This document shows, in pieces, positions 747-7,294 of a DNA stretch of 7,294 bases (position 1 is its first letter; the number at the start of each line of letters is the position of its first letter). The stretch comes from an uncultured Anaerosolibacter sp. (lineage in GTDB: Bacteria; Bacillota_A; Clostridia; Peptostreptococcales; Thermotaleaceae), in assembly GCA_937948705.1 (NCBI GenBank), contig CALECF010000092.1:1-7294 (forward strand). The letters run 5' to 3'. A program made the translations under genes and the position numbers. The notes below the pieces were generated by a model. The model ran no database searches and had not been told where the DNA came from. It was given only the letters and a program-made list of their open reading frames with translations.

Positions 747-1490
747 GTGAACGGTTATATCGCGAGCATACTGGCTGGTGCATGTACAGGCATCGGTGCG
801 CTGCCTCTTATTTTTGTAAAGAAAATAACAAAAAAATTTGAAGATCTCATCTTAGGATTTGCTGCAGGCATCATGTTGTTTGCAGCATCCTTTAGCCTTG
901 TTCTGCCCGCCCTGAAAATGGGGGGAATCATGCAGGTTACAACAGGTCTATTATGCGGGGCCATCGTCTTGGCTATTATTGAAAAAATTATACCCAATAT
1001 CAATATGGGCCAGGTTCGGGGAACTGACTTTAATAGCAAAGGGTTGAAAAAGACTATTATGATGACGGCCGCCATCGCCATACACAATATCCCCGAGGGC
1101 TTTGCCATTGGCGTGGGTTACGCTTCAGGGGAAGAAAACATGGGGCTTATACTAGCCATGGCCATTGGCATTCAAAATGCACCAGAGGGTTTGGTTGTGG
1201 CCGCACCATTAATAGAAAAAGGTTATTCCAAATTTAAGGCAATTGCTTTTGCCTTCTTTGCTGGAATTGGAGAACCTATAGCAGCCGCTGTAGGAATTTT
1301 GGCCGGGGGAGCCATACGACCCTATATGCCGTTTACACTGGCAGTGGCCGCTGGCGCAATGTATTATGTGGTATCCCATGAATTAATCCCCGAGAGCCAC
1401 TGTCATGGAAATCAGATGAGTGCTACCTTTGGTGTAATTATTGGTTTTATAGGGATGCTCATCATTGAATATAGAATAAAAGGGTTTTAA
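747..1490 (+). CDS. ZIP family divalent metal transporter, GufA-like
   Basis: An integral membrane transporter of the ZIP family (zinc or other divalent cations, toward the cytoplasm) with about eight hydrophobic segments and 247 residues. The metal-site motifs are visible: HNIPEG at residues 113-118 in TM4, QNAPEG at 143-148 in TM5, a GEP (E176) in the next helix, and HELIPESH at 211-218. The HN/QN pairing in TM4 and TM5 is typical of the GufA/ZIP11 branch. An in-frame ATG at 699 would add 16 polar residues, but it has no good ribosome binding site and falls at the predicted transcription start. The GTG at 747 has GGAAGGAG (731-738) eight bases ahead and begins right before TM1, so I choose it. 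The 3' end overlaps the convergent RusA-like gene by 4 bp, and I see no clear terminator there. The metal transported cannot be read from the sequence. Confidence 0.93.
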   Translation: MNGYIASILAGACTGIGALPLIFVKKITKKFEDLILGFAAGIMLFAASFSLVLPALKMGGIMQVTTGLLCGAIVLAIIEKIIPNINMGQVRGTDFNSKGLKKTIMMTAAIAIHNIPEGFAIGVGYASGEENMGLILAMAIGIQNAPEGLVVAAPLIEKGYSKFKAIAFAFFAGIGEPIAAAVGILAGGAIRPYMPFTLAVAAGAMYYVVSHELIPESHCHGNQMSATFGVIIGFIGMLIIEYRIKGF

Positions 1491-1900
1491 GGCACCTGCT
1501 TTGGGTCGATCGTGTACTGTATGTTGTATTTGCTGCTCTCATACAATTCGATTTCAATTCGAGGATATTCTTTATCAATATAGTCGAATATAAGAACGGG
1601 TTTTAACTGCTTATCATTTTGAATAACTCCACTTTTTTCAATCCCATCGCAAATGCTTTTTGGATAGTTATGAATATCACCTATTTGGCGGTTAGTAAAA
1701 AATAGCTTGATAATGGTAATCACACTGCCTTCTAGTGGAGGTCCATCGTATTGTTGATTGATATGACCAGCAATGGTGTTTTCATAAGCAATATATTTGC
1801 TATGCTTACCCTGTCTTGGCATCCAAAACTGACCATGGATATTCTGCAGTTTAAAATTCGATTTAGTAATGGGTTTTCCTGGTACGATTATTTTGATCAT
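1487..1900 (-). CDS. RusA-like Holliday junction resolvase (crossover junction endodeoxyribonuclease)
   Basis: A 137-residue protein of the RusA family, which cuts four-way DNA junctions as a Mg-dependent dimer. Such genes are common in prophages and are also found alone in Firmicutes chromosomes. The N-terminus IIVPGKPITK matches the family's opening strand. The core runs from GDIHNYPKSICDG to NDKQL. Against E. coli RusA (D70, D72, K76, D91) the spacing is exact: D75, H77, K81, D96. Thus one catalytic aspartate is replaced by histidine. The length is near the usual 120-140. The start is ATG (1898-1900 on the complement) with GGAGGTG six bases ahead. It is convergent with the ZIP gene, overlapping it by 4 bp, and divergent from the signal peptidase gene. 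No other phage genes are nearby, so this is either a domesticated resolvase or a phage remnant. Resolvase activity is inferred from family only. Confidence 0.88.
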   Translation of the reverse strand: MIKIIVPGKPITKSNFKLQNIHGQFWMPRQGKHSKYIAYENTIAGHINQQYDGPPLEGSVITIIKLFFTNRQIGDIHNYPKSICDGIEKSGVIQNDKQLKPVLIFDYIDKEYPRIEIELYESSKYNIQYTIDPKQVP

Positions 1901-1905
1901 TTTTA

Positions 1906-1912
1906 CACCTCC
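1906..1912 (-). promoter_or_regulatory. Ribosome binding site of the RusA-like gene
   Basis: On the complement strand GGAGGTG ends five bases before the ATG. It is close to the anti-Shine-Dalgarno consensus and fixes the start. A little upstream, TGCTAGAAT (complement of 1919-1927) resembles an extended -10. It would start transcription almost at the ribosome binding site, so I do not call it as a promoter. Confidence 0.85.
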
Positions 1913-2015
1913 AGAAATATTCTAGCACACCCTGAGCATATAATAAATTGATTCATTGTTTCTCTATAAAATGTATTTGTTCCCTCGGTTATAAAAAGCT
2001 GGGTGAAGGGAGACA

Positions 2016-2042
2016 ATGAATAAAAAGAGATATAGGGTGTGA
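2016..2042 (+). CDS. Possible 8-codon leader minicistron before the signal peptidase gene
   Basis: ATG at 2016 opens a frame reading MNKKRYRV and stops with TGA at 2040-2042, four bases before the ATG of the signal peptidase gene. It is preceded by GAAGGGAG (2005-2012), a better Shine-Dalgarno than the AGGGTG (2034-2039) in front of the signal peptidase itself. If translated, ribosomes ending here could re-initiate on the downstream gene. A frame this short occurs easily by chance, so the call rests only on the ribosome binding site and the position. Confidence 0.22.
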
Positions 2043-2046
2043 TGAG

Positions 2047-2580
2047 ATGTTAGACAAAATAATAGGTATTCTAAAGAACATCTTAATAGCTATTTTCATT
2101 GCCATCATCATAGAAGAGTGTATTTTTGGTTTTACTGTGGTACAAGGTGAGTCTATGGCACCTACTGTAAAAGATCGAGATAAGCTTTTTGTGAATAAGA
2201 TATGCTATCTACTTGACAAACCTAAGGTTGGAGATATTATTATTTTCCATCCACCCATGGAGGAAAGAAGGAAGGAATTTTTCATCAAAAGAGTTATTGC
2301 AATGGAAAATGACGAGTTCTTGATTGAGGATGGAAAGGTATTTATTAATGGCAAGAAGATTAAAGAAAATTACATTGCGAAAGAGCAGTATATAGATAGG
2401 GCTTTTGATATGGACAAAGGAAAAGTACCCAAAGGTATGATGTTTGTCATGGGAGATAACAGAAATGACAGCAATGATAGCCGATATTTCGGATATGTAC
2501 CTATAAAAAATATTGAAGGAAAAGCACATTTGCGACTATGGCCTTTTGACGAAGTTAAGGCCTTTACCGCAGATTATTAA
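2047..2580 (+). CDS. lepB: Signal peptidase I
   Basis: A membrane-anchored serine protease (family S26) that removes signal peptides from secreted proteins on the outer face of the membrane. There are 177 residues, the usual size of Gram-positive (SipS-like) enzymes. One hydrophobic anchor spans about residues 8-29. The catalytic Ser36 lies in GESMAPT, followed by box C-like KVGDIIIF (60-67). The catalytic Lys81 is in FFIKRVIA, and the conserved box [13 protein letters not shown] spans 135-146, with YFGYVP after it. All active-site elements are present. The start at ATG 2047 has the modest site AGGGTG seven bases ahead. No alternative in-frame start fits better, because the ATG at 2042 is out of frame. 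The gene stands alone, with a terminator right after the stop. I found no convincing promoter in 1913-2046; a perfect TATAAT at 1939-1944 lacks a -35 partner. Confidence 0.96.
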
Positions 2581-2610
2581 AAAGGATTGGGGAATACTCA
2601 ATTCTTTTTT
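2581..2610 (+). terminator. Intrinsic terminator after the signal peptidase gene
   Basis: AAAGGATTGGG (2581-2591) pairs with CTCAATTCTTT (2597-2607) around the loop GAATA, with two G-T wobbles. The T run continues to 2610. It begins on the base after the stop codon. Confidence 0.8.
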
Positions 2611-2648
2611 AATATCCAGAAAATTATGGTCAGTCAATTTTGATATTA

Positions 2649-2657
2649 TGATATAAT
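2649..2657 (+). promoter_or_regulatory. Extended -10 promoter of the queG unit
   Basis: TGATATAAT is a perfect extended -10 (TG, one base, TATAAT at 2652-2657). No good -35 box is seen at 16-18 bp; GTCAGT (2629-2634) is poor. Extended -10 promoters can do without a -35. The predicted start near 2664 gives a leader of about 33 bases before the ATG at 2697. Confidence 0.6.
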
Positions 2658-2696
2658 TTTAGAAAGTGTTCTCTTTATATCTAGGAGATGATGTTC

Positions 2697-3797
2697 ATGA
2701 AGTTAGAGGATAAAATTAGAAGCTACGGTAAATCCATTGGAATTGATTTGATTGGATTTGCAACGACGGAACCCTTTGTAAGAATTGGGGAAGCGCAACG
2801 CGCAAGACAGGAGAAGGGATATCTGTCAGGCTTTGAAGAGCAGGATATTGCCAAACGGACAGATCCTTTGCATATCATGGACAATGCAAAATCCATGATT
2901 GCTATTGGGATAGGATATTATCATAGGGATGAAAGCTTTGTGGAAGAGCCCCATGGGGAAATAGCTCGAACAGCTTGGGGTAAAGATTACCATGATGTTC
3001 TGAGAGAGAAACTCTTACGCTTGATGGATTATATAAAAGAAATTGTAGGGAATTTTGATTATAAAGTATTTGTAGATACAGGGCCTTTATCTGATCGGGA
3101 AGTGGCTTATAGAGCAGGTCTTGGATGGTTTGGAAAGAATAACATGTTTATAACAAAAGACTTTGGATCTTGGGTCTTTTTAGGATATGCACTGACCAGC
3201 CTCCTATTATTGGCTGATCAACCCATGGAGAAAGAGTGCTTGGGGTGTAATCTGTGCATTGAAGCATGTCCAGGTGGGGCATTAGAAAATGGTTATAGTA
3301 TGAATGCACGAAAGTGCCTGTCTTACATAACCCAGACCAAAGAAGAAATCGATGAAGTGGTAAGAGAAAAAATGGGAAATGCCATCTATGGCTGCGATGT
3401 TTGTCAGAATGTGTGCCCCCATAATGCCCATGCTCCCCCTAAGTCGGAAGGCGATTTTATACCAACAAGAAGAACACACCGACCACCTATCGGGAAATTG
3501 ATTCAAATGTCTAACAAAGAGTTTAAAGAATTGTATAAGGGCACTGCAGCTGGATGGCGAGGCAAAAACAATCTAAGACGTAATGCGATCATTGCAGCAG
3601 GAAATACGCAAGATATAAGACTGCTGCCATATCTCACCGAAGCTTTAGGTGATGATAGCATGATGATAAGAAGATATGCAGTATGGGCCATTCATAAAAT
3701 AGGCGGAGAAGGCAAAACTATCTTAAAGAACCATTTGATACGAGAGAAAGAACAAGAAATCATAGAAGAGATCAACAAATATTTAGAGGGTGAATAG
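2697..3797 (+). CDS. queG: Epoxyqueuosine reductase QueG
   Basis: A cytoplasmic, cobalamin-dependent iron-sulfur enzyme. It reduces epoxyqueuosine to queuosine at position 34 of tRNAs for Asp, Asn, His and Tyr, the last step of queuosine synthesis. There are 366 residues. The proposed catalytic aspartate is D133 in DTGPLSDREVA. Two 4Fe-4S motifs are complete: C181, C184, C187, C191 (CLGCNLCIEACP) and C207 with C233, C236, C240 (CDVCQNVCP). A C-terminal HEAT-like helical repeat (about 289-335, RRNAIIAAGN to WAIHKIGG) is typical of the longer QueG form. Three in-frame ATGs lie at 2688, 2691 and 2697. AGGAG (2683-2687) touches the first but sits nine bases before the third, so 2697 is chosen. 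The stop codon directly abuts the next gene's ATG, indicating one operon. No other queuosine genes are in the window. Confidence 0.96.
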   Translation: MKLEDKIRSYGKSIGIDLIGFATTEPFVRIGEAQRARQEKGYLSGFEEQDIAKRTDPLHIMDNAKSMIAIGIGYYHRDESFVEEPHGEIARTAWGKDYHDVLREKLLRLMDYIKEIVGNFDYKVFVDTGPLSDREVAYRAGLGWFGKNNMFITKDFGSWVFLGYALTSLLLLADQPMEKECLGCNLCIEACPGGALENGYSMNARKCLSYITQTKEEIDEVVREKMGNAIYGCDVCQNVCPHNAHAPPKSEGDFIPTRRTHRPPIGKLIQMSNKEFKELYKGTAAGWRGKNNLRRNAIIAAGNTQDIRLLPYLTEALGDDSMMIRRYAVWAIHKIGGEGKTILKNHLIREKEQEIIEEINKYLEGE

Positions 3798-4283
3798 ATG
3801 CGGGTAGCTGTTATGGCTGATACTCATTTGAAAAATAACAAATTAAATCTGCCTCAAGTGGTAATGAAACATTTAGAGGGAATAGATAGAATTATCCATT
3901 GCGGAGATGTGAAAGAAAAAGGATTACTGGATGTATTGGAAACCTATGCCCCTGTATTTTCCGTCTATGGCAACGGGGATGAGGAAGGGCTTCAATGTGA
4001 GTTAAAGGAAAAACTGATTCTCAACCTGGGAAATTACAAGATCGGTGTTGTCCATGGTCATGGGGAGAAAGGCAAAACAGCAGATCGAGCCTTAGAAGCC
4101 TTTCGGGATATGGATATAGATATGATACTCTTTGGCCATAGCCATCAACCGCTGCTTCAGACGAAGAAGGGTGTCTTGATGATAAACCCGGGATCGCCTA
4201 CTGTAAAAAGGCAAGAGAAAAAGCATTCGATGGTGATCTTAAATCTAGAAGAGGATTTGCACTGTGAATTTATATTTTTCTGA
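3798..4283 (+). CDS. YfcE/MJ0936-family metallophosphoesterase
   Basis: A small two-metal phosphodiesterase of the calcineurin-like superfamily. E. coli YfcE and archaeal MJ0936 hydrolyse artificial phosphodiesters, and the natural substrate is unknown. With 161 residues it has the usual family size. All metal-binding motifs are visible: D8 and H10 in ADTH, D37 in CGDV, N59 and D61 in GNGDE, H86 in VVHGHG, and H114 and H116 in FGHSH. INPGSPTVKR near residues 149-158 is the family's conserved C-terminal signature. The ATG follows the queG TAG with no gap, and its ribosome binding site GAGGGTGA (3786-3793) lies inside the end of queG. The two genes are therefore very likely translationally coupled. 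A role in tRNA modification is only a guess from position. No terminator follows directly; the next one is at 4552. Confidence 0.93.
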   Translation: MRVAVMADTHLKNNKLNLPQVVMKHLEGIDRIIHCGDVKEKGLLDVLETYAPVFSVYGNGDEEGLQCELKEKLILNLGNYKIGVVHGHGEKGKTADRALEAFRDMDIDMILFGHSHQPLLQTKKGVLMINPGSPTVKRQEKKHSMVILNLEEDLHCEFIFF

Positions 4284-4361
4284 CATACATAAAGCAGGAC
4301 ATAGGAAATTATTTCAAGTTTTATTCAAAGGACGAAGATATTATAATGGAGAAGAGATACG

Positions 4362-4390
4362 TTGAATCACAAGAGGAATATAGATAGGAT
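4362..4390 (+). promoter_or_regulatory. Weak promoter candidate for the intergenic transcript
   Basis: TTGAAT (4362-4367) and TAGGAT (4385-4390) are 17 bp apart, each four of six to consensus. An overlapping TACAAT (4390-4395) is better but has no -35. A start near 4397 would give a transcript of about 190 bases ending at the terminator at 4552-4590. Confidence 0.3.
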
Positions 4391-4422
4391 ACAATAATCT
4401 TTAATCTAGAAAGAGTGAGACT

Positions 4423-4566
4423 ATGAAAATTTTTAAACTGCTGCTATCGAAGTTTATAATCAAAAAAGACATGCCAAAAGGGAATTTATCCTCCCATCTT
4501 TTGTTGTCTAATACAATTATTACGACTGTCCATAACAGATCCCGTCGTTTTAACCTTAAGTTCTAA
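4423..4566 (+). CDS. Hypothetical 47-residue small ORF, unrecognised
   Basis: The frame runs from ATG 4423 to TAA 4564 and begins MKIFKLLLSKFIIKKDMPKG. It is basic, with ten Lys and three Arg, and has a short hydrophobic stretch near the start but no full membrane span. I recognise no family. The upstream AAAGAGTGAG (4410-4419) is a mediocre ribosome binding site. The stop codon falls in the loop of the following terminator hairpin, which is compact but unusual because a ribosome reaching the stop would cover the hairpin. It may be a real small protein, a leader peptide, or a chance frame over a non-coding RNA. The last is at least as likely. Confidence 0.22.
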   Translation: MKIFKLLLSKFIIKKDMPKGNLSSHLLLSNTIITTVHNRSRRFNLKF

Positions 4567-4590
4567 GCTTAAGGTTTTTCTTTTTTTTGA
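4552..4590 (+). terminator. Strong intrinsic terminator in the intergenic region
   Basis: AACCTTAAG (4552-4560) pairs perfectly with CTTAAGGTT (4568-4576) around a 7-base loop TTCTAAG. The T-rich tail after it is interrupted by a single C and a final G. It either ends the queG-phosphoesterase unit after a 270-base trailer or ends a separate short transcript. It also insulates the protease gene from upstream reading. Confidence 0.88.
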
Positions 4591-4704
4591 TCTAATAAAG
4601 TGTTTCGTTGAAATGAAAGTTGTTATCCTTTGAAAAATATTGGAGAGATGGACGAGGCAGATGAATAGAATGGATTAAAGAGTGCCCATGTATAAGGACA
4701 GGAT

Positions 4705-4710
4705 AGGAGG
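4705..4710 (+). promoter_or_regulatory. Ribosome binding site of the Lon-like protease gene
   Basis: AGGAGG lies eight bases before ATG 4719. This favours that ATG over the in-frame TTG at 4716, which is only five bases away. Confidence 0.85.
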
Positions 4711-4718
4711 AATCATTG

Positions 4719-7115
4719 ATGGCAAGGTATAAAGAGATTCCATATACAAAACTCAAAAGATTTTGCAACCCCAATCAATTTGAGTTCAGAACCACAGAAG
4801 ATCTGATTTTTAATGACAATATTATCGGTCAAGACCGAGCGGTAAGAGCTATGGAATTTGGACTACAAGTAAAAAGCTCCCACTATAATATATTTATTAC
4901 AGGATCAAAGGGCACTGGAAAGACCAGTTATGCTCAGCGAATGATATCGGAGAAAGCGAAGGATGAGAATGTGCCTGATGATTGGTGTTATGTATATAAT
5001 TTTGAAAGCCCTAGTGTACCTCTGGCTTTGAATGTACCTCCCGGTATGGGTAAAATTTTAGTTGAGGATATGGATATTCTAGTACAGGATTTATTGACAG
5101 AAATCCCCAAAACCTTCCATGGAGAAGATTATGAGAAACGAAAAACTGAAATTGTAAAGAAATATAAGGATGAAAGAAATCGCCTTATCGAAGAGTTAAC
5201 GGAGTATAGCAAAGAGCAGGGCTTTAAAATCAAAAATACAAGCACTGGATTTGCCTTGGCTCCTTTGGTCAATGGAGAGGTCATCAGTGATAGCGAATAT
5301 AGTGCATTGGAAGAAGAAGAAAGAATGGCTATTGAAGCTAAAGCAGAAGACATACAGGATATGGCAGTTGAAATTTTAAGGGAAATTAAGGAAATAGAAA
5401 GACAGGCAAAGAAAAAGGTAGTAGACCTAGACAGCACCATAGGGTTATTTGTGGTAGAACCCTTAATGGATGAATTATTTGATAAATATAAAGATCATAT
5501 CAAAATTATTGAATACTTAAAAAATGTGCAAAATGACGTCATCGAACAAATTTATGATTTCGATCTGTCTGAAGAAGAACAGGATGAGCTGGTTGTTAAG
5601 AAAACAGAAAGCAATTTTGTGAAAAAATATAAGGTGAATTTGTTTATCGATAACAGCAATACCACAGGTGCACCCATTGTGATGGAATGCAATCCTACCT
5701 ATAATAATTTAGTAGGTAGGATAGAGTATGAAAATGAGCAAGGTGCTTTGAAGACGGACTTCACCATGATCAAGCCGGGTGCTATTCATAGGGCAAATGG
5801 AGGGTATTTGATTTTACAAGCCAATCAAGTCCTAACCAACCCCCAATCCTGGGAGTTACTTAAGAGAACCATTGAAACAGGAGAAATCAGCATAGAGAAT
5901 TTGCGGGCGCAGTTGAGCATCGTGGAGATCACTACCTTGAAGCCAGAGCCAATTCCTGTAGATATTAAGGTTATTTTGATAGGAAATCCATACTTATATC
6001 AGTTGCTTTATAACTATGATGAGGAATTTGAGAAACTTTTTAAAATAAAAGTTGACTTTGATTCTGTAATGAACACCAACAAGGACAATGAGTTAAAAGT
6101 TGCAAATTTCATCAGCGATTACTGTGATCGAAAGGGATTAAAGCATTTGAATCGGGAAGCAGTGGCCAAGGTGATCGAGTACAGTCATAGGATTGCAGGA
6201 AGTCAGAAAAAACTTTCTACCCGATTCAACAAAATTATCGAGCTTCTCATAGAAGCAGATGTGTGGGCAGATTTGGATCAAAGTGAATTTGTCCGCAAAG
6301 ACCATATTGACAAGGCCTATGATGAGAAACAGTATCGGAACAATCGAATTGAAGAGAAGCTGGATGAGATGTACGAAACAGGAAAAATAATTATTGATCT
6401 TAAGGGAAGAAAGGTTGGAAGGATCAATGGCCTTTCAGTCATGGATGTGGGTGATCATTCTTTTGGAAAGCCCGCAGTCATCACAGTAACCACCTTTGCG
6501 GGAAACAGAGGCATTGTCAATATTGAGCGAGAAGTAAAAATGAGCGGGAAAATTCATGATAAGGGTGTCATGATATTAGAGGGCTACCTCAGCGAAAAAT
6601 TTGGTCAGGAATATCCTGTTACCCTAACGGCTAAAATATGCTTCGAACAATCCTATAGTGGCGTGGATGGGGATAGTGCATCTAGTACAGAGTTATATGG
6701 ACTACTATCTAGTTTAAGTGATATACCTTTAAAACAGTATATTGCAGTGACCGGTTCAGTAAATCAGAAGGGCGAGATACAGCCCGTCGGTGGCGTAACA
6801 GAAAAAATAGAAGGTGTGTTCAGCCTATGCAAATATTTTGGGTTGACGGGAGATCAAGGGGTAATCATCCCCCATCAAAATGTAGATGACTTGGTTCTGA
6901 GGGATGAAATTATTCAAGCCGTGAGAGATGGAAAGTTTCATATATATCCCGTTAGTTCAGTGGAAGAAGGGATAGAGATATTAACAGACCAGCCTTTCCA
7001 GAAAGTATATCAGGCAGTGATGGAGAAGCTCAATAAGTTTACAATGATTGTTCGAAAGGATGAAGACCCAGATCATAAAAAAGGCTTTAGATATAGACCT
7101 TTCAAAGGACGATGA
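4719..7115 (+). CDS. Lon-like ATP-dependent protease (AAA_32 plus Lon_C type)
   Basis: A cytoplasmic AAA+ serine protease of the Lon-like family with an AAA_32 ATPase part (E. coli YcbZ type), 798 residues, the usual family size. The N-terminal region contains NNIIGQDRAVRAMEFG-like helices (33-48) and a Walker A GSKGTGKT at 62-69. A long charged, helical insertion follows (about 125-300, many Glu and Lys, coiled-coil-like). Next comes HRANGGYLIL at 357-366, which takes the place of a standard Walker B; a Gln follows where other AAA+ proteins have an acidic pair. A sensor/lid region with SHRIAGSQKKLSTRF comes before the Lon protease domain (about 570-770). The catalytic dyad is Ser653 in DGDSASS and Lys696 in VTEKIEG, spaced 43 residues as in E. 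coli Lon (S679, K722). The gene is monocistronic between two terminators. It probably degrades damaged or regulatory proteins; the substrate is not readable from sequence. It is not canonical Lon, because the N-terminal LAN domain is absent. Confidence 0.93.
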   Translation: MARYKEIPYTKLKRFCNPNQFEFRTTEDLIFNDNIIGQDRAVRAMEFGLQVKSSHYNIFITGSKGTGKTSYAQRMISEKAKDENVPDDWCYVYNFESPSVPLALNVPPGMGKILVEDMDILVQDLLTEIPKTFHGEDYEKRKTEIVKKYKDERNRLIEELTEYSKEQGFKIKNTSTGFALAPLVNGEVISDSEYSALEEEERMAIEAKAEDIQDMAVEILREIKEIERQAKKKVVDLDSTIGLFVVEPLMDELFDKYKDHIKIIEYLKNVQNDVIEQIYDFDLSEEEQDELVVKKTESNFVKKYKVNLFIDNSNTTGAPIVMECNPTYNNLVGRIEYENEQGALKTDFTMIKPGAIHRANGGYLILQANQVLTNPQSWELLKRTIETGEISIENLRAQLSIVEITTLKPEPIPVDIKVILIGNPYLYQLLYNYDEEFEKLFKIKVDFDSVMNTNKDNELKVANFISDYCDRKGLKHLNREAVAKVIEYSHRIAGSQKKLSTRFNKIIELLIEADVWADLDQSEFVRKDHIDKAYDEKQYRNNRIEEKLDEMYETGKIIIDLKGRKVGRINGLSVMDVGDHSFGKPAVITVTTFAGNRGIVNIEREVKMSGKIHDKGVMILEGYLSEKFGQEYPVTLTAKICFEQSYSGVDGDSASSTELYGLLSSLSDIPLKQYIAVTGSVNQKGEIQPVGGVTEKIEGVFSLCKYFGLTGDQGVIIPHQNVDDLVLRDEIIQAVRDGKFHIYPVSSVEEGIEILTDQPFQKVYQAVMEKLNKFTMIVRKDEDPDHKKGFRYRPFKGR

Positions 7116-7125
7116 TAGGATGTTC

Positions 7126-7152
7126 AAGGCAGCGGATGTATCCGCTGCTTTT
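7126..7152 (+). terminator. GC-rich intrinsic terminator after the Lon-like gene
   Basis: GCAGCGGA (7129-7136) pairs perfectly with TCCGCTGC (7141-7148) around a TGTA loop. The stem is extended by AAG (7126-7128) against TTT (7149-7151). A short T run follows. This is the strongest hairpin in the window and lies a few bases before the intron-like sequence. Confidence 0.9.
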
Positions 7153-7155
7153 ACT

Positions 7156-7294
7156 GTTTGCGAGGCATGTTGCCGAGCCGATGGTTTGAAAGATAACCTG
7201 TCACCTAGCTAATGGGAAGACAAGCTGTAAGCAAGGGCGTTTTCGGCGACGAAAGGGTCTGAAGGAAGCTGATGGCGGTTGTTGGAACGAAACG
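7156..7294 (+). mobile_element. Group II intron, class C (IIC): 5' end, cut by the window edge
   Basis: Group II introns are self-splicing retroelement RNAs. The visible 139 bases resemble domain I of the Oceanobacillus iheyensis IIC intron as I remember it. GTTTGCG (7156-7162) matches the intron start GUGUGCC in five of seven positions. GGTT, TGAAAGAT, AACC (7183-7198) corresponds to a hairpin closed by GGG/CCC. GCAAGGGCG (7231-7239) matches GCAAGGGUG. TTTTCG (7240-7245) and CGAAAG (7250-7255) close a GCGA tetraloop, as in the O. iheyensis intron. TCTGAAGGAAGC (7258-7269) is identical to a conserved domain I stretch. IIC introns insert just downstream of rho-independent terminators, and the strong terminator ending at 7152 fits this. 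The exact boundary (7153-7158) is uncertain, since GTTTG departs from the GUGYG consensus. Whether an encoded reverse transcriptase follows cannot be seen. Confidence 0.82.

Follow-up and report, generated by a model that had tools for sequence, protein, structure and literature searches.

Comparison with relatives points to the 5' end of a mobile IIC-like group II intron, probably of variety g6, behind a protease gene terminator in Anaerosolibacter

Introduction

What lies behind the last gene at the right edge of this stretch of Anaerosolibacter DNA? The 7,294 nucleotides that were analysed, referred to here as the window, end in 139 bases that a preliminary description, made from the letters alone, took to be non-coding and to be the start of a group IIC intron set closely behind a strong terminator. 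Our comparison of these bases with related copies in other genomes indicates that positions 7156-7294 are very probably the 5' end of a mobile IIC-like group II intron, probably of variety g6, located just behind the terminator of a LonB/LonC-like protease gene. This reading draws on sequence comparison throughout, namely on the identity of the intron, its 5' boundary, the empty site in relatives, the hairpins of the exons, the co-variation of EBS1 with IBS1, and the maturase and domain V of full copies.

Results and Discussion

The protease gene and its terminator

The last gene of the window (4716..7115, + strand; 799 amino acids, with a TTG start as listed) encodes a LonB/LonC-like ATP-dependent protease that carries the Pfam domains PF13654, PF20436, PF20437 and PF05362 and shares 88-89% amino acid identity with its counterparts in two Anaerosolibacter genomes, which makes the host a probable relative of that genus. 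It is followed on the same strand by an intrinsic terminator, a hairpin of 11 bp (7126-7136/7141-7151) that overlaps a run of T at 7149-7152 and that was obtained both from the fold of 7110-7294 and from the fold of the 45-nt exon. When the 45 nt before position 7156 were compared with random 45-mers drawn from the window (at most 300), none of these folded as stably. The last G-C pair of the hairpin is at 7148 and the last A-T pair at 7151, so that the intron starts 7 or 4 bases behind it, respectively, within the range of 3-8 bases that had been claimed.

In genome G117, the protease counterpart (locus L148, G117:C1:5141900-5148000) is split by ~3.6 kb at about 1361-4949, and this insert, which carries genes for a large serine recombinase (Resolvase, Recombinase and Zn_ribbon_recom domains) and a sodium:alanine symporter, looks like a site-specific element in the protease gene. 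In the window itself, a gene of the RusA-family endodeoxyribonucleases (PF05866) is present at 1487-1900 on the - strand, as a lone gene whose direction converges with that of a ZIP transporter gene. Genes of this family are usually phage or prophage genes.

The intron start inside the window

No open reading frame of at least 80 amino acids is found in the last 139 bases, in agreement with their description as non-coding. The 5' intron boundary, GTTTGCGAGGCATGT, occupies positions 7156..7170 of the + strand. The boundaries of class C introns have been published as GUNYGCCNRGCAUGG (5') and CCUACYCGAU (3') (PMC4028801), and the 15-mer at 7156 agrees with this 5' consensus at 11 of the 13 specified positions, the best score on the + strand of the window (the runner-up scores 10). 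The GTTTG at its beginning fits the class C form GUNYG and not the general form GUGYG (PMC4028801).

The domain I core follows at 7231..7269 (+ strand) and consists of GCAAGGGCG at 7231-7239, a stem formed by 7240-7245 and 7250-7255 around a GCGA loop (7246-7249), and TCTGAAGGAAGC at 7258-7269. Direct reading of the sequence finds these three motifs where the preliminary description had placed them. In an alignment of four class C copies, L145 and L146 have GCAAGGGTG and TCTGAAGGAAGC on either side of a GTGA loop, and L153 and L155 show looser forms of the motifs. RNAalifold predicted 39 pairs for the first 139 nt of 14 copies (the window and 13 relatives), and for nine of these, at least one sequence has both bases of the pair changed. 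The GCGA-closed stem accounts for four of the nine, which make up four of its six pairs and derive mostly from L126 and L127. Since most of the double changes come from these two related copies, the covariation in domain I is taken as supporting, and not as decisive, evidence.

Copies in other genomes and the empty site

A search with window positions 7140-7294 against 393 genomes of the same order detected matches in 21 genomes at E up to 0.001. The best match, copy L113 in genome G117, is 100% identical over window positions 7155-7294, with 139 of 139 positions of the intron start identical (E = 6.2e-68). We annotate 7156..7294 (+ strand) as the first 139 nt, part of domain I, of an IIC-like and probably g6-type group II intron that is cut by the window end. 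Twenty longer loci were fetched for comparison, some of them chosen on weak matches, and in 16 of the 20 the aligned part begins at position 1 or 2 of the intron and reaches at least position 82. Fourteen copies match over at least 117 nt, twelve at 89-100% identity and two (L126 and L127) at 78%; L128 shows 77% identity over 116 nt. The copies that match from position 1 have a common left edge, GTTTG, with differing sequence to its left (L128 starts with ATTTG and has one common exon with L124). An edge this sharp, kept while the exons differ, is what an insertion leaves, and it lies at window position 7156. Phages gave no DNA match, and plasmids gave two distant ones, one of which is an intron from Vibrio (L081). 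Beside a weak intron-start match in genome G131, we also detected a Clostridiales-2 RNA (RF02937, 91 bits; L132 331-413), ~100 nt upstream of it.

Rfam, suggested as a check in the preliminary description, gave a weak answer for the window alone: RF02001 was matched at 7240-7294, covering model positions 1-53 of 170 and cut by the window end, with a score of 17.7 bits (E = 3.5) that is below the gathering score of 32 bits. In longer copies, the same stretch opens RF02001 matches of 44-74 bits. The lack of significance for the window alone would suit another structured RNA, or intergenic sequence that resembles the intron motifs by chance. This reading, whose probability we consider negligible, is already refuted by the database matches, with complete identity to a copy that has domain V and with a 5' edge common to 14 copies whose exons differ.

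The comparison with relatives that lack the insertion also speaks for an intron start at this place, since the orthologous site is empty in the Anaerosolibacter loci L001 and L002. There, direct reading shows that the protease gene is followed by a hairpin and a T-rich tail that continues, with no intron, toward the next gene, which is alcohol/threonine dehydrogenase-like as judged from its sequence. A whole-genome search of both Anaerosolibacter relatives gave no intron match. When the 139 nt were compared by BLAST with 92 protease loci, several of which end soon after the gene, no intron was found behind it; the sole match was of 22 nt in L042, upstream of the protease gene of that locus.

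Domain V, maturase and 3' end of complete copies

RF02001 (group-II-D1D4-3, domain I) was matched in 14 of the 20 fetched loci and gave no match in the other 6, and RF00029 (domain V/VI) was matched in 11 of the 20 at E up to 0.01, and 7 of these 11 reach the gathering score. Among the loci without Rfam matches, some are truncated and others had been fetched for weak matches. Complete copies measure ~2.08 kb (2,084-2,087 nt in L115, L117, L120 and L121). The maturase of L117 (P0001, 421 amino acids), encoded between domain I and domain V, matches TIGR04416 (group_II_RT_mat) at 416 bits, with a cut-off of 300, and also PF00078 (RVT_1) and PF08388 (GIIM); its domain matches include no endonuclease domain. 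Among solved structures, P0001 scores 290 bits with GsI-IIC and 288 with 7uim, 156 with 6me0 and 137 with LtrA. We take 7uim and 7uin to be the cryo-EM structure of a IIC intron with its maturase that serves for comparison below. An RT/maturase, as predicted in the preliminary description for the sequence further right, is intact in the relatives L115, L117, L119, L120 and L122. The intron ends in GCTACTCGAT in 9 of the 15 family copies examined, 8 of them with an intact domain V in front of it. Automatic placement of the 3' end was wrong or doubtful for L116, L119, L122, L123, L126, L127 and L129, and the 3' ends were taken from a separate examination of the copies.

Target recognition by EBS1 and IBS1

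All 18 exons compared (those of 17 relatives and of the window, with one common exon counted twice, in L124 and L128) have a hairpin whose last pair is 0-6 nt away from the intron start. As a median over the exons, a fraction of 0.012 of the random local 45-mers is equally stable. The hairpins of L114 (0.60) and L122 (0.41) are no more stable than ordinary sequence, and that of L119 is middling (0.17).

To the presence of a hairpin is added a pairing between intron and exon. In a blind scan of 14 copies, in which intron segments were ranked by their pairing with the exon ends compared with randomly dealt exons, intron positions 180-185 formed the top segment at every length from 4 to 7 nt. Three copies (L120, L126 and L127) have the segment at 182 instead, and L129, which carries a deletion, has it at 107. 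For the 6-nt pairing with exon positions -1 to -6, 81 of 84 cells pair, compared with 67.5 expected, and 0 of 100,000 shuffles were as good; the same holds when the 12 distinct rows only are used (69 of 72 cells; 0 of 100,000 shuffles). Position by position, the covariation at -2 was reached by 0 of 20,000 shuffles and that at -3 by 228 of 20,000, with weaker values at -1 (1,383 of 20,000) and -4 (2,866 of 20,000). Exon positions -5 and -6 pair with EBS1 but do not co-vary with it. An EBS1-IBS1 pairing of 6 bp, unlike that of IIC introns, was considered and dropped, since co-variation is found only at -1 to -4. On the evidence of this co-variation, the pairing of intron positions ~180-185 with the exon end is the EBS1-IBS1 interaction of the relatives, with a core of 4 nt.

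A scan for EBS2 (5-nt segments, exon to -17 against the aligned first 330 nt, pairings of at least 85%, 14 sequences) gave no second signal. Class C introns are described, in passages of PMC7923331, as having a short EBS1-IBS1 of 3-4 bp and no EBS2; the relatives, too, show a short EBS1-IBS1 without EBS2, and they are inserted, as class C introns are, behind a stem-loop that is usually an intrinsic terminator. The location is also alike, as EBS1 is found at 184-188 in the solved class C intron (PMC10190682) and at about 180-185 in the relatives. For the window copy, the pairing in the 14 relatives points to the last six bases of the 5' exon, TTTACT (7150..7155, + strand), as the putative IBS1. 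An exon with this end predicts RGTRRR at about intron positions 180-185, which would be 41-46 bases to the right of the window end, with AGTAAA as the version in which every pair is Watson-Crick.

By analogy with class C introns, as treated in parts of PMC10190682 and PMC4424553, the intron RNA and its bound maturase would recognise the terminator as a DNA stem-loop. The EBS1 loop would pair with the last few bases of the T-run, which serve as IBS1, and the intron RNA would reverse-splice into the DNA at that point. In the proposed mechanism, the maturase would then copy the intron from replication-fork primers, because it has no endonuclease domain.

Defective copies and spread of the intron

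Several relatives have lost parts of the element. The closest copy, L113 in G117, is 1,277 nt long and lacks the middle, and thereby most, of the RT; L118 in G007 is 634 nt long, with an RT that is broken or missing, as it also is in L123. L124 and L128 match the first 116-117 nt only and then diverge, and in L125 a match of 82 nt is followed directly by sequence from further along the intron and by the 3' end. L129 (G039:C2, 502 onwards) has lost ~73 nt of domain I and has a normal start, the EBS1 AAAAAG and a matching exon. L113 and L118 keep both intron ends and domain V, with most or all of the RT gone, and, if they are mobile, these copies would need a maturase from elsewhere.

The early breaks or deletions in L124, L125, L128 and L129, together with the broken or missing RT of L113, L118 and L123, raise the alternative that what lies in the window is just an immobile remnant of this intron, shortened by truncation or by internal deletion. 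We regard such a remnant as rather unlikely, since the window matches its best relative to the last base without a mismatch, and hence beyond the break points of L124, L125 and L128, and since its 5' boundary and target are intact. Judging from the relatives, it is likely that the window copy is the beginning of a mobile intron that continues to a maturase and domain V; this prediction is not certain, because some relatives are internally deleted or truncated. The window copy would also be expected to splice.

The protease of G117 shows 68-70% protein identity and 69-70% DNA identity to that of the window, and the intron start is identical over 139 nt. This suggests a recent transfer of the intron between genera, to be read with the caution that domain I is conserved and that 139 nt is a short stretch. 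In one draft genome, two contigs stop at an identical point in the intron, ~133 when counted as in the window copy, which ends at 139 (G074:C9:44445-44582 and G074:C12:1-138). A multi-copy element may explain the right edge of the window, if that edge is a contig end.

Relation to class C and to g6

The RNA family, the boundaries, the short EBS1 and the terminator target of the intron are all IIC-like. With class C, as represented by the GsI-IIC RT (6ar1) and the cryo-EM structure of a IIC intron with its maturase (PMC10190682), the family shares RF02001, a short maturase, a stem-loop target and class C-like ends. The family differs in its start, which is GTTTG, whereas three of the four class C copies start with GTGCG and the fourth with GTACG. 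It also differs in its maturases, as the class C RTs share ~37-47% identity with P0001 and make up a clade of their own, and in the catalytic triad of domain V, which is AGC instead of CGC.

Phylogenetic analysis of the RTs was based on the best matches listed (at most 30 loci per search) and 12 others with an RT match, a sample in which other lineages are thinly covered. Before the larger tree was built, L173 was dropped as too short, L168, L175 and L192 as duplicates, and L082 as having no RT match. In the resulting tree of 55 rows, the family maturases fall outside the class C clade (34 rows, support 100/100) that holds GsI-IIC and 7uim, and there are separate branches for the family (support 93/95, recovered in 91% of 200 bootstrap trees), for class C and for the other RTs (98/91). 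A first tree of 21 rows had joined the family and class C at 92/86. Because the trees are unrooted and the sister pair depends on the root, they were used only for the statement that the family lies outside class C. In the larger tree, L154 joins the frameshifted L161, a grouping that is surely a long-branch error; we take L154 to be an RmInt1-like (class D) intron.

The domain V triad separates the same groups. Among the matches listed, domain V was found in 13 family loci, all of them relatives, and in 33 class C loci (30 after removal of identical RTs); the former have AGC in every case and the latter CGC in every case. AGC was also found in three more distant introns, and no domain V was found in 7 of 56 loci by a script that accepted AGC or CGC only. 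In passages of PMC7923331, the CGC triad in domain V is given as a feature of class C; judged in the relatives, neither this triad nor a maturase inside the class C clade is present. The RF02001 scores differ likewise, with 44-74 bits in the family and 110-151 bits in four class C copies.

A bona fide class C (IIC) intron, belonging to the GsI-IIC/7uim clade and not to g6, would account for the RF02001 matches, the 11 of 13 consensus positions at the 5' end, the class C-like 3' end, the terminator target and the 4-nt core of EBS1. It would leave unexplained why the family maturases fall outside a clade with 100/100 support, why the triads of the listed matches divide without exception, and why the RF02001 scores stay so far below those of the four class C copies, and we consider it very improbable. 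What stands of the group IIC intron start proposed at 7156 is thus the group II intron with its IIC-like domain I and target, and not the class C membership of its relatives.

A variety of intron with such features has been reported. The g6 introns, described in 2014, have RTs from clostridia and gammaproteobacteria that lie outside the monophyletic class C, combined with class C-like intron RNA, and their members include Al.or.I2, Pe.th.I1, D.p.I1, Na.th.I1, Tc.po.I1 and Al.ma.I1 (PMC4244168). According to a 2022 survey, almost half of the introns that have g6 or certain unclassified IEPs lie immediately behind rho-independent terminators (PMC8919778). The relatives of the window intron agree with this account in their position outside the class C clade, their class C-like RNA and their terminator target, and the family is clostridial, with a gammaproteobacterial Vibrio plasmid intron among its near relatives. 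That intron, on plasmid pC1579 of Vibrio alginolyticus (NZ_MN865127.1, L081), has on direct reading a GTTTG start behind a hairpin, together with an RF02001 match of 49 bits, an AGC domain V and an RT 48.6% identical to P0001; it differs in that it comes from another phylum and shows 77.5% DNA identity over 48% of the query only. We infer membership from the published description of g6, and not from the named g6 sequences. The position outside the class C clade, the AGC triad and the match to that description together place the window intron, by comparison with its relatives, as IIC-like and probably of IEP variety g6. The literature passages covered were not found to state an AGC/CGC split for g6, and we make no claim that it is unpublished.

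Implications

The window intron adds a further copy to a retroelement lineage that is already known, at a site of the kind usual for it. As closely related copies occur at different terminators, the pairing between exon and intron can be read from the sequence alone. The AGC/CGC split offers a simple marker for whether terminator targeting arose once or twice. We propose tentatively, as a possibility that falls somewhat short of an even chance, that the triad cleanly splits two terminator-targeting lineages, one AGC and g6-like and the other CGC and class C, and that, if these are sisters, stem-loop targeting and a compact IIC-like domain I predate the CGC triad. The class C-like RNA of g6 would then reflect shared ancestry rather than the convergence or reshuffling of RNA and protein that has been proposed for it in passages of PMC4244168.
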